Of a stretch of DNA of 45,881 nt, positions 10,197-17,273 are shown piece by piece; the stretch's first letter is position 1; the number at the start of each line of letters is the position of its first letter. The position numbers and the translations under genes are program-made. The notes under the pieces were generated by a model. The model saw only the letters and a program-made list of their open reading frames with translations. It searched no databases and was not told the DNA's origin. Origin of the DNA: an uncultured Eubacteriales bacterium (GTDB lineage: Bacteria; Bacillota; Clostridia; Peptostreptococcales; Anaerovoracaceae); NCBI GenBank assembly GCA_900315485.1, contig OMZI01000023.1, forward strand, positions 1 to 45,881, given 5' to 3'.

Positions 10197-10226
10197 ATTA
10201 TACACCTGGTAAGAAGAATGTGACAA
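10197..10226 (-). promoter_or_regulatory. Promoter for aminotransferase-aldolase-kinase operon
   Basis: Minus-strand TTGTCA (10221-10226), an 18-bp spacer and a perfect TATAAT (10197-10202), about 75 nt upstream of the aminotransferase ATG. The -35 box is contributed by the CATTGTCAC arm of a REP-like palindrome. Confidence 0.6.
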
Positions 10227-10277
10227 TGGGGACAGTTCGCACTGCTATGTTTACACCAGGTACAGCTCTCATTGCCA
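10202..10277. repeat. REP-like palindromic element, diverged copy
   Basis: TGACAATGGGGAC (10221-10233) and CTCTCATTGCCA (10266-10277) are imperfect inverted copies of the arms of the element at 17310-17338. A second inverted pair, ACCTGGT (10204-10210) and ACCAGGT (10255-10261), is interleaved. The arms resemble short palindromes dispersed in many Firmicutes and often linked to Y1 (RAYT-type) transposases; that link is from memory, and no transposase is present here. Confidence 0.5.
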
Positions 10278-10327
10278 CTTTTTCCGTAAGCTTCACCACT
10301 AATGGTAACGGATTGGCGTAATCTGCT

Positions 10328-10700
10328 CGTTTTGCCTCCAAAAACGCCAACCGGCCCGAGCACCTGTGGCGTAGGATCGACCGTTTTGCCTTCAAAAACG
10401 CCAACCAGCCCAAGAGCCTATGGCGTAGGATCGATCGTTTTGCCTTCAAAAACGCCAACCGGCACAGGAGCCTGTGGCGTAGGATCAATCGTTTTGCTTC
10501 CAAAAACGCCAACCGGCCCGAGCACCCGTGGCGTAGGATCAATCGTTTTGCCTTCAAAAACGCCAACTGGCCCGAACACCTGTGGCGTAGGATCGACCGT
10601 TTTGCCTTCAAAAACGCCAACCAGCCCAAGAGCCTATGGCGTAGGATCGATCGTTTTGCCTTCAAAAACGCCAATTGGCCCGAGTGCCTGTATTGCAGAA
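10328..10700. repeat. Tandem repeat: seven 54-bp units
   Basis: Units begin with CGTTTTGCC at 10328, 10382, 10436, 10490, 10544, 10598 and 10652, exactly 54 bp apart; the seventh is degenerate after about 35 bp. Each unit contains CGTTTT/AAAACG arms around a 7-nt loop and ACGCCA/TGGCGT arms around a variable 17-nt segment, so a transcript could fold into alternating hairpins. Because 54 is a multiple of three, long reading frames run through it on both strands, but none has a convincing start. The array lies between the gap terminator and the aminotransferase-operon promoter. Confidence 0.85.
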
Positions 10701-10746
10701 GAATGGTACATTTGCTAAAGAATTGGTCTACCCTGTATCTTCTTTT

Positions 10747-10779
10747 CAAAAAAAAGCAAAACCCCGGCCGGAGCCGGGG
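10747..10779 (-). terminator. Intrinsic terminator after gap
   Basis: CCCCGGC (10762-10768) pairs with GCCGGGG (10773-10779) around a 4-nt loop. On the minus strand the hairpin is followed by TTTTGCTTTTTTTT. It lies about 90 bp past the gap stop. Confidence 0.85.
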
Positions 10780-10870
10780 CTTGATCATTCAGTATTCGTA
10801 GTGTGATCTGTATTGACCACCGTTCGCAAGTTATTCGAACGGTTCTGATGCTGATCACTCTAAGCCGGAA

Positions 10871-12497: not shown

Positions 12498-15287
12498 TTA
12501 CAGTGCGCTCCGAATCTCCTCTTCGGTCCGCGCAAGAATACTCATGAACTCGCGCGAGGATATCCTCAGTGCGCCGTGCTCGAATGAATCCTGCTGTACC
12601 AGCATGTCCGAGCTGACGACATATATCCTGCGGTTTTTCATCGCATTGGTCATGAGTCCGATGCGTATATCTGCAGGTTCATTCTCAGAGGTGTATATCA
12701 CTCTGACTCCGAGATGGTCCTCTTCATATCCCTCGCCGCCTGTGACATTATATGCGTCGAATATTACTGCTGTCTCGGCACCTGTATATGCCGTATAGTT
12801 GCAGAGTCTCTCAAGAAGCTGATCCCTCGCTCCTCCCATGTCCTTCTTCGCAAGGTCCGTGAGGTATTCATCTGCATGGATGAGATTGTAGCCGTCTATT
12901 AGAATGACAGGTCTCTCCTCCGGTGCGGACTGAGTCTTTTTCTTCTCATGTTTCTCGCGTATCTGCTGATTGCGGAGCTCGTCAGCTGCCTTCTGCTCTT
13001 CCGTCTTCTCAGGCATTTCGTACTCAGGGCCGAATCTGTTCTCCCTTGCAGACCTGCCTGTACGCTCCTTAGCCGGTCCGTAGGTCCGCTCGAATATCAT
13101 ACGGAGCTCCTTCTCTGCAGCGAGCTGGCGCTTTCTGGCTTCTGAGTCAGACCTGCCGCCATGCATGGATCCGGTGTATCCGCTCCTGTCTGAGGCGTCA
13201 TCTGTGTACAAACCGCCTGCCGCTCCGTATGCAGAGTCAGTGCTTCCTGTGTTTCTGTATCTTCTGAGCACGCTGCCTATATGCATGTGTTCAGGTACAT
13301 CATCCCACTTTATGATATCGCTGCCTCCGTGTGACACGAATACAGAGTCTGCCGGATTGTCGATGTCTCTTTCAGGATCATATCCGGATTCCTCTATGAC
13401 CCTATCAGCATCGTGGCACGGTGCGTATCCCGCAGGAGTGCATGTAAGCCTGCCTGTGCCGGATGTATATGAGATCAGAGTCTGCTGGTATCCGGCGATC
13501 TCAGATGCAGGCACACGCCCGCGTATCCTTGATGTGTCGCCTTCCTGCTCAAGAGACTCCTGAGTTCCGCCCATCTGCTGAATATCTGTCATAGCACGCC
13601 CTACAGCCTGCGACGGCAGCTCTATCTCGTACTCATTCCACGGCTCGAGCAGTGCAGCCGCGCCCGCAGCGCGGGCCTGCATCAGAGCATTCCTGACCGC
13701 CCTGTATGTCGCCTCGCGGAAGTCCCCGCCGCTTGTATGCTTGTCATGGGCTCTTCCGGCTGCAAGAGTTATCCTTACATCGGTGACAGGAGCGCCCGTC
13801 AGGACTCCTCTGTGCTCTTTTTCATCTATGTGAGTGAGTATCAGCCGCTGCCAGTTCCGTGCAAGCTCATCCTCAGGTGTTATGCTGCTTATGACTACAC
13901 CGCTGCCCGGTTCGCCCGGTTCAACTATAAGGTGCACCTCGGCATAGTGCCTCAGCGGCTCGAAATGCCCGACGCCTTCGAATACATCAGTTACGGTCTC
14001 AAGGTACAGCACCTTGCCGCTCCCGAATGTAACATCGTAGCCGTATCTGTCCTTTATCATGGCGGTCAGTACTTCCAGCTGGACCTGCCCCATGAGTCTT
14101 ATCTCTGTCTCACCCGTCTCCTGTATCCTGCGCACACTGAGTGACGGATCCTCCTGAGCCAGCTTCTCAAGATCCTTCATGACAAGGTACGGGTCCATTC
14201 CGGCAGGTCCGCTGACCGTGTATACCATGAAAGGCCTGATGACAGGATCCGCTGCAGGCATCTCTGCTCCGAGCGAGTCCCCCGGCATCACATCAGGCAG
14301 GCCTGTCAGTGCACATACCGTTCCGGCCTCAGCCTCATTCACGGAAGTGAACCGGCTGCCCGAATATATCCTGATCTGATTGATTTTGGTCTCGCTATCT
14401 TCCTGCTCTCTCCCCTGCACTCTATGATGTACAGTAACCGTATCTCTGGCCCTGAGTGTTCCGCCTGTTATCTTTGCGAATACAAGCCTGCTCCCGTCAT
14501 CACCGGCAGCCGTCTTATATATCCTGGCACCGAACTCATCACTGTATTCAGGCATGATAGTAAACCTGCTCAGGATCTCGAGGAGATCCTCTATCCCTTC
14601 CTGCTTCAGCGCCGAGCCGAATATGCACGGAACTATCTCGCACCTTCTTACCGCATCAGCGATGCTCTCATCATCCGGAGCCCCTTCAAGCTCACCTTCG
14701 AGCACCATATCCGCAAGCTCAGGAGAATGAAGAGTGATGTCATCTATGAACTTCTCCAGCCCGGCGGCATCTGCGCCCTCAAGCACTCCGCTGAAATCCA
14801 CCGGCCCGCATCCGAGTTCATCCGCAAGCTCGGCAAGGAGGTCCTCCTTCTGCCTGACAGCGATATCCATCTTATTTATGAACACGAAAACAGGGATGCC
14901 CCTGTCAAGGAGCAGCCTGTACAAAGTCCTCGTATGCGCCTGCACGCCTTCCGATCCGCTGACTACCAGAAGAGCGTAGTCTAAAACGGACAGCGCGCGC
15001 TCCATCTCCGCCGCAAAGTCGACGTGTCCCGGAGTGTCGATGAGTGTGAACTCAGTCTTCCTGTCTTCCGGGCCGGCCGTGAACAGGGCCTGCCTCGAGA
15101 AAACAGTGATCCCGCGGTTCCGCTCTATCTCGCTGTCATCGAGAAAAGCGTCGCCGTGGTCGACCCTGCCGATCTTCCGGAGCTCACCTGTTCTGTACAG
15201 GATGGCCTCAGAGAGAGTCGTTTTGCCCGCATCGACATGCGCAAGTATTCCGAGTGTTATTCTTCTTTTCGCATCCTTATATGCCAT
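12498..15287 (-). CDS. TetM/EF-G-like ribosomal GTPase fused to YacP/Rae1-like NYN nuclease domain
   Basis: 929 residues. The first 650 or so resemble TetM/TetO ribosomal protection proteins: P-loop AHVDAGKTT (16-24), switch I RGIT (58-61), DTPGH (84-88), NKMD (138-141), then the beta-barrel domain and EF-G-like domains III-V, ending like TetM with a YTSG..L..AGY segment. A charged, low-complexity linker (about 665-785) leads to an NYN/PIN-type domain (792-929) with LIDGYN (D798), FDAYN (D844), ENEPADIR (D873) and SSD (D894), the acidic set of YacP/Rae1. B. subtilis Rae1 cuts mRNA in the ribosomal A site. A ribosome-acting nuclease is inferred. Drug resistance is not implied. No clear Shine-Dalgarno precedes the ATG, which lies 23 bp after the upstream gene. 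Confidence 0.85.
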   Translation of the reverse strand: MAYKDAKRRITLGILAHVDAGKTTLSEAILYRTGELRKIGRVDHGDAFLDDSEIERNRGITVFSRQALFTAGPEDRKTEFTLIDTPGHVDFAAEMERALSVLDYALLVVSGSEGVQAHTRTLYRLLLDRGIPVFVFINKMDIAVRQKEDLLAELADELGCGPVDFSGVLEGADAAGLEKFIDDITLHSPELADMVLEGELEGAPDDESIADAVRRCEIVPCIFGSALKQEGIEDLLEILSRFTIMPEYSDEFGARIYKTAAGDDGSRLVFAKITGGTLRARDTVTVHHRVQGREQEDSETKINQIRIYSGSRFTSVNEAEAGTVCALTGLPDVMPGDSLGAEMPAADPVIRPFMVYTVSGPAGMDPYLVMKDLEKLAQEDPSLSVRRIQETGETEIRLMGQVQLEVLTAMIKDRYGYDVTFGSGKVLYLETVTDVFEGVGHFEPLRHYAEVHLIVEPGEPGSGVVISSITPEDELARNWQRLILTHIDEKEHRGVLTGAPVTDVRITLAAGRAHDKHTSGGDFREATYRAVRNALMQARAAGAAALLEPWNEYEIELPSQAVGRAMTDIQQMGGTQESLEQEGDTSRIRGRVPASEIAGYQQTLISYTSGTGRLTCTPAGYAPCHDADRVIEESGYDPERDIDNPADSVFVSHGGSDIIKWDDVPEHMHIGSVLRRYRNTGSTDSAYGAAGGLYTDDASDRSGYTGSMHGGRSDSEARKRQLAAEKELRMIFERTYGPAKERTGRSARENRFGPEYEMPEKTEEQKAADELRNQQIREKHEKKKTQSAPEERPVILIDGYNLIHADEYLTDLAKKDMGGARDQLLERLCNYTAYTGAETAVIFDAYNVTGGEGYEEDHLGVRVIYTSENEPADIRIGLMTNAMKNRRIYVVSSDMLVQQDSFEHGALRISSREFMSILARTEEEIRSAL

Positions 15288-15310: not shown

Positions 15311-15634
15311 TCAGGAGCGCCTTAGCTTCCAGAGCAGGTCAAAGCAAAGCCTTCGGAACGGAGTGTCACCGCCGTCGTTCAGATCGATCGGGTCGGCATG
15401 TCTCATCAGGTATCCGAACCAGCCGGCTCTCATGCAGATATAGAAAACGACCGCATGGAAATATATCTCCCTGGCAAGCTTCTGCCGGGTCATGCCTTCT
15501 ATCTTTCTCTCCGCCAGGATCCGGTCGGCCTCCCTGAGGCAATTCTCCTTGTCTAAGAAGCGGATCGCCGACGGAATCGAGAGCTTTTTCAGGTCTCTCT
15601 CACGCTTGCGTTTTCCGGGTATCATTCTGCTCAT
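15311..15634 (-). CDS. Hypothetical basic protein
   Basis: A 107-residue, Arg/Lys/Leu-rich protein with no membrane segment or motif I can name; the middle contains a helical stretch with REIYFHAVVFYICM. Its ATG follows the TAG stop of the flavoprotein gene directly (TAGATG), with only a weak GAG as ribosome-binding site, so it probably depends on translational coupling. The downstream neighbour is the GTPase-NYN gene. It may belong functionally to either. Confidence 0.6.
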   Translation of the reverse strand: MSRMIPGKRKRERDLKKLSIPSAIRFLDKENCLREADRILAERKIEGMTRQKLAREIYFHAVVFYICMRAGWFGYLMRHADPIDLNDGGDTPFRRLCFDLLWKLRRS

Positions 15635-16522
15635 CTATTTCTCAGCAAGGTACTCTACGATCGTATGAGCGGCTATATTGCCCTCTCCTACGGACTTGGC
15701 TATCTGATAAGGCCTTCCGGTGCAGTCTCCTGCAGCGAAAACGCCCTTGATGTTGGTGTTCATCGCTCTGTCGACGATAATATGCGCTCCGTCAAGTTCG
15801 AGATCCTTGAGAAGAGTCGTCGGTGCGATCGAGTTTCTGAGGCAGAAAATGCCGTCAACAGCCACCTCGGTGTCGTCTGTGAGGACGACTCCGTCCGCCT
15901 TGAGACCGCCTTTGATCTTCTTCACAGGCTTTGGAAGCATCTCTATCTTGCCTGCGTTATCGCCTTCAGCTCCGCTGCCGTTTCTGCCGTACTTACCGCC
16001 GGCATATCCGGATGCTACGTACACTTTATCTGCGAGCTCAGCAAGATAGTCGACCTCATGCTCGAATCTCTCGTCACCGCAGAATACTGCGATCGTTTTT
16101 CCCTTATAGAGGAAGCCGTCGCATGTAGCGCAGTAGCTGACTCCGCGGCCGAGCATCTTCTCTTCGCCTTCAAATCCCCTGGCTGCAGCTGCTCCTGTAG
16201 CCAGGAGGATGGTCCTGGCCTGATATACGTCCGAACCGGCCGAAAGCATGAACATGTCGCCCATCGGCATGATGGCGGTGACCATCTGCTCTGTTATCTC
16301 AAGACCCATCTCTTCAGCATGTGCCTCAAACTTTCCAACGAGATCCTTCCCGGAGATGTATCCCATTCCCGGGTAGTTCGCGATCTTTTCGGACTTCTCA
16401 ACCTTGGTGCTGAGGTTCTTCGCTCCCAGCCATATGAAGCTCTTGTTGTGCAGCTTGAGATTGATAGCCGCGGACAGTCCTGCAGGGCCTGTTCCGATTA
16501 TTGCAACATCATAAATGTCCAT
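15635..16522 (-). CDS. Thioredoxin-reductase-like FAD oxidoreductase
   Basis: 295 residues. The FAD fold begins with IIGTGPAGLSAA (8-19), the redox disulfide is C131-ATC-C134-D, and the C-terminal FAD motif is GVFAAGDCTG. The second nucleotide domain departs from standard TrxB: GGGDSA is replaced by FCGDERFEHE (147-156), and the HRR-type NADPH 2'-phosphate site is missing, replaced by a Gly-rich stretch near 172-190. A ferredoxin-dependent or other electron donor is therefore possible, as in the clostridial FFTR type. ATG at 16522 follows AAGGAGAG. First gene of the operon with the 107-residue protein and GTPase-NYN. No thioredoxin gene is adjacent. Confidence 0.85.
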   Translation of the reverse strand: MDIYDVAIIGTGPAGLSAAINLKLHNKSFIWLGAKNLSTKVEKSEKIANYPGMGYISGKDLVGKFEAHAEEMGLEITEQMVTAIMPMGDMFMLSAGSDVYQARTILLATGAAAARGFEGEEKMLGRGVSYCATCDGFLYKGKTIAVFCGDERFEHEVDYLAELADKVYVASGYAGGKYGRNGSGAEGDNAGKIEMLPKPVKKIKGGLKADGVVLTDDTEVAVDGIFCLRNSIAPTTLLKDLELDGAHIIVDRAMNTNIKGVFAAGDCTGRPYQIAKSVGEGNIAAHTIVEYLAEK

Positions 16523-16697: not shown

Positions 16698-16728
16698 TTC
16701 TGTATCGATTCAGTACGTCATACTGCCG

Positions 16729-17061
16729 CTATACTGCGACCTGCTCGGTGCCTGTGACCTTGTAGTCAGTACCCTTCAGCAGGCGGGCAAAATCCGCTTC
16801 GCTCTTCTCGCTTTTGGAGAGGACTTCGGCTCTTGCGCGGCCGAGATTGACATGCGCCCATGTGTCGCCGGATGCATTGATTGCATTCTCGACTCTTGCA
16901 GCGCAGTTGGAGCACATCATGCCCTCGATACCTACGTTGTATCTGTACGGATAATGCGATTCATCCGTATCTTCTACAGGCTTGGCAAGTACGGATTCAG
17001 CACTGCCGCAGCAGCTCCGGCGGCGCTTCTTACCGCTTCCTCTGATGCAGCCACGTGACTC
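16729..17061 (-). pseudogene. Remnant of heavy-metal-associated (HMA) domain membrane protein
   Basis: An open frame of 110 codons has no usable start before ATG at 16920 (63 residues). Read from 17061 it gives a basic stretch, then SCCGSAES, then HYPYRYNVGIEGMMCSNCA and a complete rest of an HMA domain, with metal-binding Cys in MCSNC. This order (basic, CCG, linker, HYPY, HMA) is that of a clostridial family whose N-terminus is a membrane helix. That helix and the start codon are missing. The frame overlaps the 3' end of the truncated tetR in another frame, so a deletion probably joined the two genes. A short HMA peptide could still be made from 16920, but it would lack the first beta strand. 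Confidence 0.6.
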
Positions 17062-17273
17062 TCAAGCCACTTCTTCATGTCCGTAACAGCCGGCTCTACG
17101 AGTGCCTCAAACATGGCCTCCTTGCTGTCAAAGTGCCTGTAAAGCGCAGCCGCAGTAAGGCCGCACCGCTGCCCTATACGCCGCATCGATGCCTTATCGT
17201 ATCCGAATTCGGAAAACTCATCCATTGCAGCGCGTATTATTATCTCGTGACTCAAAGATTTATCTCTCGGCAT
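16974..17273 (-). pseudogene. Truncated TetR-family regulator
   Basis: A 99-residue product. Residues 1-60 form a complete TetR helix-turn-helix (AAMDEFSEFGYDKASM... LYRHFDSKEAMFEAL). Normal members have about 190 residues; the ligand-binding and dimer domain is missing. The last 29 or so residues (Ala-rich) are encoded by DNA that in another frame reads as the HMA protein, so the true tetR part probably ends near residue 70. ATG at 17273 follows GGAGGGG. Promoter and palindromic operator upstream are intact, so a short DNA-binding peptide may still be expressed. Confidence 0.65.

Follow-up and report, generated by a model that had tools for sequence, protein, structure and literature searches.

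GTPases of the EF2 family bind beside the ribosomal A site with their domain IV placed in it, and in eukaryotes Hbs1-Dom34 forms a no-go decay pair with Cue2. In bacteria, Rae1 (YacP) is described as an endoribonuclease of the ribosomal A site (PMC6613710, PMC12320835), and how A-site nucleases such as Rae1 select the ribosomes on which they cut is an open question. Passages of Atkinson 2015 (PMC4342817) report Tet proteins of ten Clostridiales species that bear a YacP-like NYN domain, suggest a role in resistance for them, and state that loop 3 of domain IV in Tet proteins dislodges the drug. The GTPase-NYN architecture has been known since that report. Here, we describe a gene of this architecture from an uncultured Eubacteriales bacterium of the family Anaerovoracaceae, which lies in a window of 45,881 nucleotides (the whole stretch of DNA analysed; contig OMZI01000023.1, assembly GCA_900315485.1). 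The comparisons below incline us, by a narrow balance, to regard its product as the Rae1 of these Clostridia, provided with a fused GTPase that would act as a ribosome-targeting and A-site-opening module.

The gene is a single uninterrupted open reading frame (ORF) of 929 amino acids on the minus strand (12498..15287), as are all its parts, and encodes an EF2-family GTPase, an extension, a linker and an NYN_YacP domain. Its N-terminal half comprises the GTP-binding domain GTP_EFTU (residues 8-241; 14565..15266) with the catalytic motifs AHVDAGKTT, RGIT, DTPGH and NKMD, domain II (EF-G_D2, residues 254-339; 14271..14528), domain III (EFG_III, residues 369-422; 14022..14183), domain IV (EFG_IV, residues 424-538; 13674..14018) and domain V (EFG_C, residues 546-626; 13410..13652), so that the full set of EF2-family domains is found by Pfam and by alignment. 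Behind domain V follow a C-terminal extension typical of this GTPase subfamily (residues 627-676; 13260..13409), a variable linker (residues 677-789; 12921..13259) containing the short motif ELRMIFERTYGP that recurs among fused proteins (residues 727-738; 13074..13109), and the Rae1-type nuclease domain (residues 795-927; 12507..12905).

Relatives were collected by a scan of genome contigs, which found 141 and from which 80 were retained; the main alignment holds the window protein and 79 blastp rows scoring at least 240 bits. Eleven of these 80 rows stop short of the full set of four nuclease acids: five are ORFs open at a contig end (L017, L070, L074, L083, L086), one covers the front part of a gene that is split (L037_b), and five are Bifidobacterium proteins. 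An earlier note on this DNA, made from its letters, had called the GTPase apparently intact, and the alignment bears this out, since residues K22, R58, G59, T61, D84, G87, H88, N138, K139 and D141 are invariant wherever covered and I60 is replaced by valine in one row. The positions for GTP hydrolysis are likewise intact.

The C-terminal half scores 119.7 bits against the NYN_YacP model, for which the curated Pfam cut-off is 24.6. A phmmer search with the last 144 residues at E <= 1 returned as its sole matches the Bacillus subtilis YacP structures 5mq8 and 5mq9 (E = 1.3e-21), with all four acidic residues aligned. This clear homology to Rae1 crystal structures upholds the Rae1-type identity that the earlier note had assigned to this half, together with its claim that D798 (codon 12894..12896), D844 (12756..12758), D873 (12669..12671) and D894 (12606..12608) are kept. 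The first of these is aspartate in 70 of the 80 rows and the other three in 69, the remainder being gaps; in all 69 fused rows that reach them, the four positions are aspartate. Regular loss of the acids among homologues had been named beforehand as an outcome that would count against a nuclease, and none of the 69 fused homologues has lost them. The same four residues are present in every one of 20 free-standing proteins of the Rae1 type from 20 genomes, a set picked from the NYN_YacP matches listed for a draw of 398 genomes of the phylum (the window's own and others at 90% completeness or more), and fused and stand-alone domains also have in common the motifs DGYN, AR, FDA, AD, SD, Q898 and GA-x-R.

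Relative to L010, the closest relative, the ratio of nonsynonymous to synonymous substitution rates (dN/dS) is 0.037 for the GTPase, 0.142 for the extension, 0.207 for the linker and 0.065 for the NYN domain, with synonymous sites near or at saturation in the comparisons with L012, L018 and L013. Judged by these ratios, both halves are under purifying selection. Because all 69 rows retain the acids, both halves are under selection and the NYN domain matches the Rae1 structures, the fusion is not a chance product.

Where it occurs, the fused gene is usually the only gene of the Rae1 type. The earlier note had proposed a search for the architecture across Clostridia, and it proved to be widespread there. 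In the phylum draw, 28 of 398 genomes encode the GTPase within an ORF of 857-937 amino acids, and all 28 have exactly one NYN_YacP match; 22 of these sole matches are listed in ORFs of 874-927 amino acids, those of G000 (the window's own genome) and G004 were confirmed from other scans, those of G263, G149 and G450 were fetched and verified as fused, and the fusion in G419 was inferred from coverage to residue 926. Among the other 370 genomes, 191 have an NYN_YacP match, 187 of them above the cut-off. Each of six additional fused genomes, found by way of named loci, likewise has a single match. A draw of 60 genomes of the family yielded the GTPase in 27 and NYN_YacP in 29; the NYN-only cases are G026 and G049, with ORFs of 444 and 372 amino acids, and in G029 the two halves lie on different contigs. 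In a draw of 198 genomes of the order, at least 40 show a match within an ORF of 827-1286 amino acids, the fusion being inferred from ORF length except in G643, G624, G557, G028, G034, G047 and G048; the 1286-residue case turned out, on reading, to be an 880-residue fusion. Of those 40 listed genomes, 38 have a single NYN_YacP match. G508 of the order draw, which is not among the 40, has two, and the families f59 and f142 include members with either form. We take these counts, which come from genomes that are not independent of one another, as pointing to a strong though not absolute rule that the fusion takes the place of free Rae1.

Beyond chromosomal contigs, two of 72,556 plasmid records cover at least 80% of the query, and the listed one comes from Monoglobus, has 518 kb and holds a fusion annotated as a 'translation factor GTPase family protein'. 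Two unannotated records filed as 'Bacteriophage sp.' from human faeces, MT835563.1 (4001-6562) and MT835514.1, match the fused protein over 98% of its length and are perhaps bacterial contigs filed as phage.

The fused and free forms differ at the C-terminus. In 16 of the 20 stand-alone proteins the chain terminates in an E-x-hydrophobic-R-R/K (ExxRR) tail, located 59-63 residues past the TSD motif in the 15 rows where this could be measured. At this position the motif is found in none of the 69 fused rows, and the window protein ends before it. Thirty-seven fused rows end fewer than 53 residues past TSD (one of them, L065, because the contig ends), while the other 32 have longer tails, none with ExxRR in place; ten of the 69 rows carry an altered ExxRLG form, and the six pattern matches in fused rows lie 20-31 residues past TSD. 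The 170-residue B. subtilis Rae1 has the tail EKWRR, of which R166 is the final residue. According to passages of a suppressor-screen report, rae1 R166P was placed among the loss-of-function alleles and a small deletion of nucleotides 469-473 was likewise taken as loss of function (PMC6613710). Because of these alleles, the ExxRR tail seems to be needed in the free enzyme, and it seems to have been given up in the fusion, where the GTPase may compensate for its loss.

The reading of the protein as Rae1 with a fused ribosome-targeting GTPase has its basis in features that can be seen: both halves are intact and under selection, the nuclease has the Rae1-type acids, it is usually the sole NYN_YacP match, and the Rae1 tail is absent. 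Ribosome binding, the order of steps, gating by GTP and the substrate are what we infer from them. Tentatively, and with well under even confidence, we propose a one-chain no-go-decay factor in which the GTPase would open a paused A site and pass it to its own Rae1 nuclease, cutting would be gated by GTP, and the protein would replace free Rae1 in most of these Clostridia, the GTPase substituting for the tail as ribosome finder. On steric grounds the two halves are unlikely to fill one A site simultaneously, and the proposed cycle is therefore sequential. In such a cycle, the GTP-bound GTPase half would bind a paused ribosome at its factor-binding site and, by analogy with its family, insert domain IV into the A site. 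Hydrolysis of GTP would then move or remove whatever closes the site and domain IV would withdraw, whereupon the long linker would let the tethered NYN domain take the vacated A site and cut the mRNA codon exposed there in the manner of Rae1. The truncated message that results would be left to ribosome rescue. The retention of the fusion in many Clostridia, usually as the only Rae1-type gene, suggests that ribosome choice can be GTP-dependent.

Several observations weigh against so close a partnership. Five Bifidobacterium GTPase loci lack the NYN domain, and none of the five genomes has an NYN_YacP match; a plasmid gene of Ligilactobacillus salivarius and six genomes of the phylum also encode the GTPase without NYN, with a free Rae1 match in four of those six genomes as against 191 of 370 overall. 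The NYN-less GTPase thus does not clearly co-occur with free Rae1, which is the chief argument against a tight functional dependence. One genome of the order draw (G643; L139, L140) carries, alongside the fusion, a free Rae1 that has EQMRR as its tail, a second (G557) has another NYN_YacP match besides the fusion, and in the family draw G041 has the fusion and a partial match in an 88-residue ORF. The gene is also dispensable, NYN_YacP being found in 29 of the 60 family genomes (21 of 35 good ones) and in three of five other members of the genus. Finally, glutamate, found at position 877 in 57 of 69 rows and at position 897 in 43 of 69, is replaced in the window lineage by G877 and V897. Strict mutual exclusivity of fused and free Rae1 was dropped in view of G643, G557 and G041. 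In G643, which is possibly a transition state between the two forms, the free Rae1 lies near an EF-Tu-sized GTPase ORF.

Since the GTPase occurs without NYN, it has a job that does not involve the nuclease. This persistence in several lineages favours an account in which the halves act separately, one as a ribosomal GTPase and the other as an RNase on rRNA, tRNA or free mRNA, so that fusion would only keep the RNase near ribosomes; the long and poorly conserved linker is in its favour too. The earlier note had called the linker long, and the interval between residues 626 and 795 does span 106-180 amino acids in 68 rows, but its first 50 or so residues belong to the GTPase subfamily: the extension behind domain V (CHN...SVFCxHGxG..W) is common to fused and NYN-less relatives, and the six NYN-less proteins of the phylum stop 1-4 residues past it. 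The remainder is not wholly featureless, since an ELxxIFxRTYG-like motif recurs in 41 of 69 fused rows if a strict pattern is used and in 62 of 70 if the pattern is loose, and is absent from all five NYN-less Bifidobacterium rows. This recurrent motif, the surrender of the stand-alone tail and the retention of one fused clade across many families speak against independent halves, which we consider rather unlikely.

The clade was defined in a tree of GTPase halves, obtained by a short search with support from the Shimodaira-Hasegawa-like approximate likelihood ratio test (SH-aLRT) only, rooted on EF-G-type proteins and leaving out L017, L070, L074 and rows with 560 or fewer residues of this half. 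All 78 fused rows fall in a clade of support 100, which also contains the five Bifidobacterium proteins and the one from L. salivarius; the six NYN-less phylum proteins fall outside it. On account of this topology, a single fusion with later loss of NYN appears to fit best. A tree of NYN domains (69 fused and 20 stand-alone rows) requires two changes. On the L. salivarius plasmid pA17A the NYN-less GTPase gene (L127, 3408-5926) is divergent from rpsN, encoding ribosomal protein S14, and also from a 'putative metal homeostasis protein' gene, and one genome of the family (G059:C16:55151-57067) has, besides its fused copy, a second GTPase paralogue, a 649-residue ORF that matches residues 7-677 only.

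The 2015 suggestion, that such a protein protects ribosomes from an antibiotic and that the extra RNase domain adds to drug resistance, draws on passages of Atkinson 2015 that place these proteins in the Tet subfamily (PMC4342817), and the best NCBIfam model for the window protein is tet_protect. The score of 403 bits is, however, far under the curated cut-off of 775, and identity to Tet(M), Tet(O), Tet(S) and Otr(A) proteins is 27-31% over about residues 8-623. The earlier note's label, a TetM/EF-G-like GTPase, stands for the domains, which are of the EF-G/Tet type, and fails at the decoding-site tip. In the window protein, tip loop 1 of domain IV is EGVGHFEPLRHYAE (residues 437-450; 13938..13979) and loop 3 is GRAHDKHTSGGDF (residues 511-523; 13719..13757), and the subfamily as a whole has GVGHFEPLRH and GRAHxKHTEGGDFR, with K516, H517 and T518 of loop 3 each present in 77 of 80 rows and gaps in the other three. 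Loop 3 of a fetched tet(S) product, YYSPVSTPADFR, and the corresponding loop of an otrA-like protein, GFAGPLSAAGDFR, are unlike these, and the window-type fused proteins have no Tet-type loop 3. Nor is the protein a housekeeping EF-G, since it scores 253.7 bits against an NCBIfam equivalog cut-off of 659.4 and lacks the SYHEVDS tip; its own genome encodes separate EF-G-type proteins of 717 and 660 amino acids that have this tip. By tip and score, the GTPase half is a subfamily of its own, with a domain IV tip that is neither Tet(S)-, OtrA- nor EF-G-like. Because of the tip loops, the scores and the yield of two plasmid records noted above, and with no fixed neighbours across 86 clustered loci, we judge a resistance function distinctly improbable. 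Within family f73, the fused proteins L130 and L137 have a degenerate loop 3 (NKYTDG), a changed loop 1 and a good NYN match, a tip that we read as a natural variant.

It is very unlikely that, in the window lineage, the NYN half serves to bind RNA and is only weakly catalytic: the two replaced glutamates and the short C-terminus would suit such a loss, and against it stand the four acids, present in every fused row including that of the window, and the low dN/dS of the domain. Scarcely credible is a part in stress response or defence, with mRNA cut on the ribosome when, for example, a phage attacks, since the patchy presence of the gene in the family is offset by the absence of any PADLOC match at E 0.01 for the three proteins searched, the fused protein and its two upstream neighbours.

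Upstream of the fused gene and on the same strand, a gap of 23 bases separates it from a 107-residue ORF (15311..15634) with no Pfam or NCBIfam match, directly upstream of which lies a thioredoxin-reductase-like flavoprotein gene (15635..16522). From this layout, co-transcription of the three genes is likely in this clade. The redox flavoprotein that the earlier note had put in the operon is thus present upstream as described, but it is a local, clade-restricted neighbour: a close copy (73-98% identity) occurs in the loci of only five fetched relatives, and the next-best matches are 29-30% identical. A conserved operon was rejected because clustering of the neighbours around 86 loci, read by eye, gave no general partner; the GTPase cluster holds 84 of the 86 loci, the next holds 12 in mixed orientation, and the others 7 or fewer. 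In the window, nothing matched Rfam at gathering score and no tRNA was found. Elsewhere in it, a 54-bp tandem repeat (10327-10691; 6.8 copies, 85% match) sits in an unmatched 196-residue ORF on the minus strand (10198-10788) adjoining GAPDH. At about 16725-17273, also on the minus strand, a 99-residue TetR N-terminal ORF ends directly before a peptide stretch in another frame, CSNCAARVENAI, labelled HMA-like by eye; the arrangement resembles a regulator cut short or the junction of a deletion.

A search of the open literature for NYN or YacP together with GTPase terms found no report besides Atkinson 2015, and relative to the passages of that paper the sole-copy pattern, the tail and the tip loops are additions, with no claim that they are unpublished. 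Like the Clostridiales proteins described in those passages, the window protein joins a Tet-subfamily GTPase and a YacP-like NYN domain in one chain, and we see no difference in kind between them. With Tet(M), Tet(O), Tet(S) and Otr(A) it shares an EF2-family GTPase, from which it departs in tip loops 1 and 3, in the C-terminal extension of about 50 residues and in scores below the family cut-off; in genomes of this kind, the annotation 'Tet-like' may denote an mRNA-decay factor rather than a resistance gene. The NYN-less GTPases of Bifidobacterium, L. salivarius and the six phylum genomes have a similar loop 1, loop 3 and extension, and unlike the window protein they have no NYN domain and, in the Bifidobacterium rows, no linker motif. 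To B. subtilis Rae1 the protein is tied by the NYN_YacP domain, the same four acids and most conserved motifs, whereas Rae1 stands alone as a 170-residue chain ending in EKWRR and the window domain is fused behind a GTPase without that tail. Loci of stand-alone Rae1 often have an EF-Tu-sized GTPase ORF nearby (so labelled from its length), and none was seen beside the window fusion. Finally, as in the Hbs1-Dom34 and Cue2 pair, a translational GTPase and a nuclease would together handle stalled ribosomes, although in the eukaryotic system the nuclease fold is unrelated and the proteins are separate.

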